In this document: piece by piece, positions 23,668 through 32,640 of the stretch
How positions within the stretch are numbered: the stretch's first letter is position 1
Layout of the letters: each line of letters begins with the position of its first letter
Notes under the pieces: generated by a model
Database searches by the model: none
Seen by the model: the letters and a program-made list of their open reading frames with translations, nothing else
Told to the model about the DNA's origin: nothing
Program-made: the position numbers and the translations under genes
NCBI RefSeq assembly: GCF_017183135.1
Contig: NZ_JADDXW010000004.1
Span: forward strand, 62,001-126,000
Length of the DNA: 64,000 nucleotides
Source: Aurantimonas marina
GTDB lineage: Bacteria > Pseudomonadota > Alphaproteobacteria > Rhizobiales > Rhizobiaceae
Direction of reading: 5' to 3'

Positions 23668-23913
23668 ATGCCTGAACGCACCCAAAATTTGCAAGATCTC
23701 TTTCTCAATACGGTCCGTAAGCAAAAGATTTCGCTGACCATTTTTCTGGTCAACGGAGTAAAATTGACCGGCGTGGTGACGTCTTTCGACAATTTCTGTG
23801 TCCTGCTGCGGCGCGATGGGCATTCCCAGCTGGTCTACAAGCACGCGATCTCGACCATCATGCCCTCGCAGCCCGTCAACATGTATGACGGCGACGAAGA
23901 TGGGAAGGCGTGA
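23668..23913 (+). CDS. hfq: RNA chaperone Hfq
   Basis: The 81-residue Sm-like protein pairs small RNAs with messenger RNAs. Sm1 ([41 protein letters not shown]) and Sm2 ([14 protein letters not shown]) are intact, as are the proximal-face residues. The short acidic tail DGDEDGKA is usual for alphaproteobacteria. The ATG at 23668 gives the canonical N-terminus [20 protein letters not shown] lies just upstream. hflX starts on the next base after the stop. Confidence 0.97.
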
Positions 23914-30892: not shown

Positions 30893-31492
30893 TCAGCGCA
30901 AGCTGCGTTCGATCGTTTCGCGCGACTGCATCGCCGCGAACTCGATCGCGAACCCCTCTTCGAGGTGGCGGACGACACGCCCTTTCGTCGTGCCCAGCGT
31001 GATCCGCGAGCCGATGGCGGGTCGAATACGGCTTGTCACAGCGGCGCCGGACAGTGACAGGTCGATGATCCGAGCCTGATAGCGTCGACCGTCTTCGAGG
31101 ACCACGTCCACCAAAGGATTTTCCGGCTCCACGCGCTCATGGCGCCGATCTTCCGGCAGGTCGAGTTCACGACGGTTGGCGAACCAGGTCAACTGGGCAG
31201 CCAACTTTTCGCGCTTGCGCTCGCTGCTCTTGAGCGTGAGCACAAAACCGCCGTCGAAAACGCGAACCACCGTGCCCTCCAACCGACCGATATGATCGAT
31301 GTAGACGATGATCCGTTCGCCTTCCCTGGGACGGACGGCAGTGGTGATCGCGACGTCGCCTGGAGACATGTTTTCGGCGCGGCAGGGATATTCGGTTCGG
31401 TCTTCGCGCATGAACCGACCGAGAAGATTGACGTCAACACGATTGAAGCGGCGCCGCTCGTCCGATCCCACTTGCCGTGCTTCAGCCTGCAT
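30893..31492 (-). CDS. Protein with two PilZ domains (c-di-GMP binding candidate)
   Basis: The 199 residues split into two PilZ-like units. The first (about 10-105) has the arginine motif RRRFNR but a degenerate second motif (NMSPGD). The second (about 115-199) has RRHER and a canonical DLSLSG. Only the C-terminal unit therefore has both parts of the classical c-di-GMP site. No catalytic, receiver or membrane segment is attached, so it probably works as a stand-alone effector through protein contacts. The start ATG at 31492 faces the divergent region that ends in an orphan terminator. Confidence 0.85.
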   Translation of the reverse strand: MQAEARQVGSDERRRFNRVDVNLLGRFMREDRTEYPCRAENMSPGDVAITTAVRPREGERIIVYIDHIGRLEGTVVRVFDGGFVLTLKSSERKREKLAAQLTWFANRRELDLPEDRRHERVEPENPLVDVVLEDGRRYQARIIDLSLSGAAVTSRIRPAIGSRITLGTTKGRVVRHLEEGFAIEFAAMQSRETIERSLR

Positions 31493-31599
31493 AATCTCTC
31501 AACCGTCAATTCGCCACGGTCGCGGGCAACCGCGCTTTCCGGGACTTTTTACAGCCGGAAGCTTAACGATCTGTGCAGAAACGCGGTTCTTCAATCTGC

Positions 31600-31776
31600 C
31601 GTCGCGGCGTTAACTCTCACACGCAAATCCATTTGCCGGGCCTCGTTGGACACCGTAAAAGAGGCGAAGGACGGATTTCGGTCCTGATCGGCAGCACCCA
31701 CCTGTGCGCTTCCCTGGTTTTCCAGTTTAGATTCACGCAGACCTCTAACCGCCCCATGACATGGGGCGGTTTTTTT
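31600..31776 (+). ncRNA. Candidate small RNA or long structured leader ending at an orphan terminator
   Basis: No plus-strand gene precedes the very strong plus-strand terminator at 31747-31776, so something transcribed from this gap is being ended. Upstream of it are several short hairpins: 31641-31644 with 31661-31664, 31668-31672 with 31681-31685, 31694-31697 with 31704-31707, and CTGG-TTTT-CCAG at 31714-31725. The sequence does not match any RNA family I can name with confidence. The 5' end is a guess and no clear promoter was found. Alternatives are an antisense or divergent transcript from the PilZ promoter region. Confidence 0.4.
31747..31776 (+). terminator. Strong rho-independent terminator without an upstream gene
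   Basis: A perfect 11-bp stem (31747-31757 with 31761-31771) with a GAC loop runs into seven T residues. The T run is on the plus strand only, which sets the direction. The next plus-strand gene starts 76 bases downstream, so it must have its own promoter after this element. Confidence 0.9.
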
Positions 31777-31851
31777 CCGTTGGTGTCAGTCTTCATCCGG
31801 CGCCCCATGTTCGGCGGGTCGATGCATTGCCGTCAGGCCTGCCGGGCGGCA

Positions 31852-32640
31852 ATGGACACGAACCGAAATGAAGATGGAGCGCAAAGCGTGACCCCGCACC
31901 AATCCGGCCAACCGCACCACGAGGCCATTGATCGCAGGGCTCATCCCCCGGCGTTCAACGTTCCGGGAATCATCCTGGCCCTGATCGCGATTTTCGCGAT
32001 CATCCATGCGATCCGGGTATTCGTATTGGGTCCGGTCGCTGCGTCCGATGTGCTGCTCGACTTTGCCTTCATTCCCGGGTGCTACGGTGATCTCGATGAG
32101 ATCTGCAGGTTTCGTTCCACCGGCGCCGATTTCTGGTCGCCCTTCTCCTATGCGTTTCTGCACGGGGATTGGACGCATCTGGGGGTCAATGCGGTGTGGC
32201 TACTGGCTTTCGGAACACCGGTCGCGCGGCGGCTCGGGACCGTTCGTTTCATTGCCTTCTCGGGCGCTGGCGCGCTCGCGGGCGTGACTGCCTTCTCAAT
32301 CCTGAACCCGACCCTTGTCGCACCGGTCATCGGGGCATCGGGAATCGTCTCGGCGTTGATGGGAGGCGCCTGCCGCTTTGCCTTCGGCGGGCGGGGGGGG
32401 GCGCGGTTCAATCTCGCGCGGGCTGACATGCCGGTCGTGTCGATCGCCGATGCTTTGTCCAACCGAACCGTACTTGTCTTCATCGCGGTCTTTTTCGCTA
32501 CCAACCTGCTAATCGGCAGCGGTGTGGGCGGCGCGCTCGGCGGCGGAGCGATCGCCTGGGAAGCCCATCTTGGCGGGTTCGCGTTCGGATTTCTGGCATT
32601 TCGTCTGTTCGATCCCCTGTCGCGCGTCAGCGTACCCTGA
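31852..32640 (+). CDS. Rhomboid family intramembrane serine protease
   Basis: The 262 residues form a polytopic rhomboid domain. The catalytic serine lies in VIGASGIVSALMGG and the histidine in WEAHLGGFAFG. The first loop carries FSYAFLHGDWTHLGVNAVWL, a family hallmark. Hydrophobic segments begin with NVPGIILALIAIFAII near residue 42. Substrates cannot be deduced. A GTG at 31888 with GGAG nine bases upstream is a plausible alternative start that would remove 12 residues. The CBS gene follows after 77 bases on the same strand. Confidence 0.88.
   Translation: MDTNRNEDGAQSVTPHQSGQPHHEAIDRRAHPPAFNVPGIILALIAIFAIIHAIRVFVLGPVAASDVLLDFAFIPGCYGDLDEICRFRSTGADFWSPFSYAFLHGDWTHLGVNAVWLLAFGTPVARRLGTVRFIAFSGAGALAGVTAFSILNPTLVAPVIGASGIVSALMGGACRFAFGGRGGARFNLARADMPVVSIADALSNRTVLVFIAVFFATNLLIGSGVGGALGGGAIAWEAHLGGFAFGFLAFRLFDPLSRVSVP

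Follow-up and report, generated by a model that had tools for sequence, protein, structure and literature searches.

A strong transcription terminator that stands ahead of a rhomboid gene in Aurantimonas marina very likely ends a small RNA (sRNA) gene of about 109 bases with its own promoter. Taken jointly, the observations are best explained by a single-gene, noncoding RNA of about 109 nt that is transcribed from its own promoter, evolves fast and occupies, judging by gene order, the locus of the Brucella RNA BSR0739; we assign a probability of about 0.73 to this joint reading. An unannotated small RNA had already been proposed here from the letters of the window (the whole 64,000-nt stretch of DNA analysed) by a sequence-only reading. 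It is still the best reading, since the promoter and the transcript are kept in synteny and a Northern-confirmed Brucella RNA lies in what appears to be the same gap. In most of the family genomes examined the unit appears to precede the rhomboid gene, with a probable related form in other Hyphomicrobiales, and its predicted promoter geometry, ends, motifs, terminator and synteny are supported by comparison of genomes.

The predicted gene and its flanks

The gene order is pilZ on the minus strand followed by the sRNA unit, the rhomboid gene and a gene of a CBS protein, all on the plus strand; on the far side of pilZ lies a gyrase-B/ParE-type gene. The rhomboid family is taken here to be peptidase family S54. 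The following features are referred to below.

30893-31492, minus strand: divergent pilZ gene (Pfam PilZ, 2e-17)
31610-31614, plus strand: TTAAC element, exactly 18 nt ahead of the TTG of the -35 box, in the conserved TTAA[CG]-N18-TTG geometry
31633-31638, plus strand: putative -35 box TTGCCG, from comparison of relatives
31656-31661, plus strand: putative -10 box TAAAAG, 17 nt past the -35 box, from comparison of relatives
31668-31776, plus strand: predicted sRNA of about 109 nt, delimited by promoter spacing, a common AGGAC/CGGAC start and the terminator as its end
31669-31684, plus strand: 5' hairpin GGAC...GTCC of the predicted fold, 83.3% of cells paired in 20 sequences
31692-31697, plus strand: conserved CAGCAC motif, mostly paired in the predicted fold of the window RNA
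31714-31725, plus strand: CTGG-TTTT-CCAG hairpin of the predicted fold, roughly where relatives have (C/T)TCCAG
31747-31776, plus strand: intrinsic terminator, from a consensus scan and from compensatory changes at 9 of the 12 pairs in 20 sequences
31888-32640, plus strand: rhomboid gene, the downstream flank (Pfam Rhomboid, 1.6e-21)

The pilZ gene has the opposite orientation to the unit, as the sequence-only reading stated, and its observation that no plus-strand gene stands upstream holds as well. The plus-strand frame there (31139-31687, 182 aa) runs antisense to pilZ, extends into the sRNA and is likely spurious, because it is broken by stops in the three closest relatives. The distance of 76 bases given earlier between the terminator and the rhomboid gene has to be revised to about 111 nt, since the rhomboid gene probably starts at GTG 31888, with GGAG ahead of it, and the upstream ATG 31852 is not conserved in these three relatives. 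Within this gap, CGCCCCATG at 31801-31809 repeats the 5' arm of the terminator; it is part of GCGCCCCATGTTCGGCG, a stretch kept in the same three relatives. An anti-terminator role for this copy was considered and rejected: the polymerase reaches it only after the terminator, and in locus L070 its pairing is not perfect.

Promoter, terminator and fold of the predicted RNA

Relatives were fetched by means of PilZ, named loci of Aurantimonas, Jiella, Mangrovicella, Fulvimarina and Aureimonas being among them, and 20 loci, including the window, were chosen because the unit was visible; together with locus L138 they form the Aurantimonas-type set of 21. The gap is arranged alike in the 20 chosen loci: TTAA element, TTG, -10 box, an RNA of 91-112 nt (104 nt in L048) and terminator. 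The sequence-only reading had identified no promoter, and a sigma-70 consensus scan of the region likewise found none; comparison of relatives nevertheless reveals one. The TTAA[CG]-N18-TTG module, carried by the window at 31610-31635, is present in 20 of the 21 Aurantimonas-type loci, which were chosen for the unit (the miss, L071, has a spacing of 19), and its extension TTAA[CG]-N18-TTG-N20-TA in 19 of them (misses L071 and L078). Among PilZ loci that were not selected for the unit, the module was found in 11 of 13 from Aurantimonadaceae versus none of 32 from other families. The promoter spacing and the AGGAC/CGGAC start common to relatives place the predicted sRNA start at about A31668, and the start at 31600 assumed earlier thus lies too far upstream.

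The terminator is the textbook plus-strand structure that had been described, with a perfect stem of 11 bp (31747-31757 and 31761-31771), a GAC loop and a run of seven T (31770-31776), two of which also belong to the stem count. A terminator-like site is in itself not rare: two were found by the consensus scan, while 2.8 weak ones are expected in 2.1 kb of shuffled sequence. The stems of the two sites have 11 pairs (31747-31776) and 5 pairs. The conservation of the first site exceeds chance, both in the alignment of relatives and in family regions compared with shuffles. Compensatory changes in the syntenic gap of relatives, a check suggested with the original proposal, were found at 9 of 12 terminator pairs in 20 Aurantimonas-type sequences, and at 9 of 11 pairs in 53 family members.

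The predicted fold of the window RNA consists of the 5' hairpin, a small hairpin covering most of CAGCAC, the CTGG-TTTT-CCAG hairpin, which had been listed earlier among several short hairpins, and the terminator. The 5' hairpin is less certain: although 83% of its cells are paired, GGAC/GTCC shows no compensatory change over the 20 sequences. Compared with shuffles, and with the terminator included in every case, the fold of 31600-31778 has a z-score of -2.23 (1/200) and that of the predicted transcript -2.53 (2/200), the range being -1.53 to -4.38 across 14 members and -1.53 to -5.61 across 25.

The sequence between the promoter and the terminator diverges fast, as would be expected if the two merely insulated the divergent region and yielded no functional RNA product. 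This explanation is very improbable in view of the 25 folded members, whose scores include the terminator, and of two motifs retained far above chance: among 79 members, CAGCAC is present in 35, versus 1.6 expected from shuffles, and [CT]TCCAG in 22, versus 2.4 expected. It is harder still to credit that the unit is a gene of a small protein. The window copy does contain an 8-codon GTG frame and L068 a different 9-codon frame, but no frame of at least five codons both starts and stops inside the RNA in L069, L070, L072 or L075, and none of this length is common to the six members checked.

The noncoding RNA preferred here is probably a trans-acting pairing RNA. An activator, possibly CtrA-like in the wider family, would bind the TTAA element, the sRNA would be released at the terminator, and Hfq would bind its U tail. 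The sRNA would most likely pair in trans with target mRNAs, perhaps via conserved stretches such as CAGCAC or (C/U)UCCAG, and this pairing would alter their translation or stability. Of the features relevant to Hfq, the window contains the predicted U tail and, as the sequence-only reading had noted, a gene at about 23668-23913 (plus strand) that we take to be hfq, recognised by motif and recall rather than by a family search. The role of CAGCAC as a pairing seed is a weak suggestion and only a guess, because only 14 of its 36 sites are predicted to be open, with five or six of the six bases unpaired, and in the fold predicted for the window one of its six bases is unpaired.

Distribution in the family and beyond

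Aurantimonas is placed by NCBI in the Aurantimonadaceae, Hyphomicrobiales, while the GTDB family of the window, referred to below, is presumably Rhizobiaceae in the wide sense. The rhomboid gene was searched for in 161 genomes of this family and found in 154; for 100 of these the sequence ahead of the gene was read. A strong sense terminator precedes the rhomboid gene in 72 of the 100 regions, with none antisense and a mean of 1.2 per 100 in block shuffles, these genomes sharing kinship, so that the counts do not represent 100 independent events. Some of the 28 regions with no strong terminator have one that is visible by eye and falls under the strength set by the rule (e.g. L147, L149, L156 and L158). 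The TTAA[CG]-N18-TTG module occurs in 69 regions in sense versus 2 in antisense orientation, and other spacings within 8-29 give 0-4, except 8 (15 regions) and 12 (60 regions), the latter peak being due to the second TTAA of TTAAGGTTAAC. The distance from the element to TTG was 23 nt in all 59 family units measured, under a rule that permitted 20-27. On the divergent side, tblastn found a PAS_5-like gene in 78 of the 100 regions, a PilZ-like gene in 14 and neither in 8.

The unit was not seen in five of these 28 loci, L146 (Aureimonas leprariae), L148, L150, L151 and L152, which points to its apparent loss in Aureimonas leprariae and four other genomes. In these loci (L146 belongs to the same genome as L079) pilZ lies close to the rhomboid gene, with no strong terminator between them.

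Wide synteny with the rhomboid gene would suit a cis regulator, such as an attenuated 5' leader of the rhomboid mRNA in which signal-dependent read-through makes the rhomboid; this synteny is to be read with the choice of loci by rhomboid or PilZ in mind, by which units elsewhere would be missed. A leader is an unlikely alternative, weakened by the variable distance between the terminator and a position slightly inside the rhomboid match (44-219 nt in 72 regions), with a terminator-rhomboid distance of 322 nt in L100 and, measured to the gene start, about 270 nt in L075, by the five genomes that keep the rhomboid gene and lack the unit, and by Brucella BSR0739, which RT-PCR did not join to either flank (PMC4365724).

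The consensus of the Sinorhizobium meliloti CtrA site is TAA-N7-TTAAC (PMC3616915). A relaxed box resembling it, TTAA-N7-TT[AT][AC], was found in 62 of the 100 family regions and in 2 antisense, spacings of 4-6 and 8-10 giving 1-13, and the strict TTAA-N7-TTAA in one. Both forms are absent from the window, which has the TTAAC half-site only. Since the N7 box is mostly relaxed in the family and a half-site in the window, CtrA might control the sRNA promoter in the family, and for this genome the suggestion is weak.

In close relatives conservation extends past the terminator, both the promoter and the transcript being kept in synteny. A DNA search of 100 relatives gave two clear homologues, in G006 and G004, and otherwise short matches. 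In the own genome, model R1, which was trained on this copy, found one strong copy at 87 bits, the next match having 27 bits. Run over 297 family genomes, it returned 77 with E<=0.05; the 12 matches of at least 49 bits were all already training loci, as was that in G044 (39 bits). Among the 22 R1 matches listed, three were training loci and L138 (32 bits) was the only new unit accepted, the others being, by eye and without annotation, for the most part terminator-bearing ends of other genes. Two weak matches, in the own genome (G000 C1:164187-164292, i.e. L115:1501-1606, minus strand) and in L143 (1501-1584, minus strand), have GGGCGTTTCCTCCCTAGACT before a terminator and TTGAC upstream of it; perhaps they are another sRNA with a CCTCC stretch, which we would liken to AbcR.

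Model R2, based on 53 family members, found 14 of the 21 Aurantimonas-type units in place (9.8-22.5 bits), 8 of them through the terminator part alone, and missed 7, including that of the window. Homology between the two groups thus rests on synteny and the promoter rather than on transcript alignment. Because the models cross poorly between the Aurantimonas type and the wider family, what is claimed is a common locus and a putative common promoter, with a transcript that would have drifted.

In other families, the TTAA[CG]-N18-TTG module precedes the rhomboid gene in 7 of 23 loci (antisense in one of 23; spacings 12-17 and 19-24 give 0-2), and, when the terminator rule is relaxed, 20 of the 23 have a sense terminator there (antisense in 3 of 23). 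Variants of GTTAACGTTAAATTAAC are present in L083, L099, L101, L081 and L082, some with a CTCCAG stretch, and most of these loci have a GGGGAGGGGTGGGGATG-like stretch ahead of the terminator; L101 has no strong terminator. The divergent neighbour in L101 and L099 encodes a PAS_5 protein.

Comparison with known RNAs

The Rfam covariance-model search that had been suggested as a check gave no family match for the stretch: at gathering and relaxed thresholds, nothing in the window or in 20 of the family loci scored above gathering. The best E-value belonged to GcvB (RF00022; 16.5 bits, E 0.26), which was rejected, its gathering score of 42 not being reached. The earlier dismissal of 6S RNA is borne out, as neither 6S nor other Rfam families were found by this search. 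GspR and PmaR were rejected as the identity of the unit on locus or distribution.

EcpR1 (SmelC291) of Sinorhizobium meliloti, as far as the available portion of its description goes, is likewise a terminator-bearing sRNA from Rhizobiales, about 100 nt long and linked to the cell cycle; it differs in its divK-pleD/rpmG locus and its SL1 loop UCCGCCGCAUCU, both absent from the window unit (PMC4414408). EcpR1 was rejected as the identity, the flanks here being pilZ and rhomboid and UCCGCCGCAUCU being absent, by eye, from 31600-31776. SmelC023, SmelC289 and SmelC671 are similarly wide in Rhizobiales, mostly syntenic and provided with terminators; unlike the window unit, the first two have polA/MarR and prolyl-tRNA synthetase neighbours and the third carries the CUCCCUGU motif (PMC3927594). 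SmelC165, a Rhizobiaceae RNA with complete microsynteny according to the available part of its source, is a possible identity. The literature searched by locus names and by rhomboid and sRNA, supplementary tables aside, contained no paper linking the locus across genera; in S. meliloti or Agrobacterium it may already have a published RNA number.

The available portion of the Brucella melitensis study places BSR0739 between the divergent BMEI0738 and the co-oriented BMEI0739 and describes a Northern-confirmed band, abundant in exponential phase, a predicted length of 160 nt, a promoter and a terminator predicted in the gap, and a level affected in an hfq mutant, outside the three most affected RNAs; BlastN conservation is given there for three other Brucella RNAs, and BSR0739 is assigned no family (PMC4365724). 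In a 2022 review, as far as available, it is listed without a function. MopJ is a single PAS_5 protein that acts in the CtrA circuit of Caulobacter and is induced by (p)ppGpp; BMEI0738, Atu1754 and SMc01000 are named as its orthologues in the available part of the source (PMC4432633). From similarly partial sources, SMc01001 is listed as peptidase S54 (PMC8175422) and a CtrA site lies upstream of the PilZ gene SMc00999 (PMC4414408), so SMc00999-SMc01000-SMc01001 matches the gene order of the relatives. By the same order, BMEI0739 would be a rhomboid gene.

By MopJ orthology and gene order, the window unit appears to be the locus of BSR0739. As far as the Brucella source is available, both have the same orientation, a gap before the co-oriented gene, and a predicted promoter and terminator, and the window has the same layout of a plus-strand unit directly before the rhomboid gene with a divergent gene opposite. 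They differ in predicted length (160 nt versus about 109 nt) and in the divergent flank, a mopJ orthologue in Brucella and pilZ in the window, where a divergent mopJ (PAS_5) gene is absent beside the unit. Because pilZ replaces mopJ, the same BSR0739-type locus is claimed rather than full membership. A search of the own genome for MopJ (PAS_5) gave one marginal match, in a 665-aa frame, and no clear gene; the sRNA unit may thus have outlived its usual neighbour, mopJ having presumably been lost by Aurantimonas.

The locus is already known as one candidate RNA in Brucella and is not in Rfam. Sequence searches and Rfam miss it because the transcript drifts fast, while promoter geometry and gene order reveal it; TTAA-N18-TTG with an orphan terminator in synteny is a mark that might guide the search for further fast-evolving sRNA genes. 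More tentatively, and with some doubt, there may be an order-wide sRNA family, divergent from MopJ and with a CtrA-controlled promoter shared with mopJ, which Aurantimonas kept after the loss of mopJ. If true, the circuit that governs cell cycle and starvation would include an RNA arm across Hyphomicrobiales. The Northern-confirmed Brucella RNA itself seems to represent a single version of a far more ancient locus and, if so, the function of the sRNA could be tested in harmless laboratory rhizobia.
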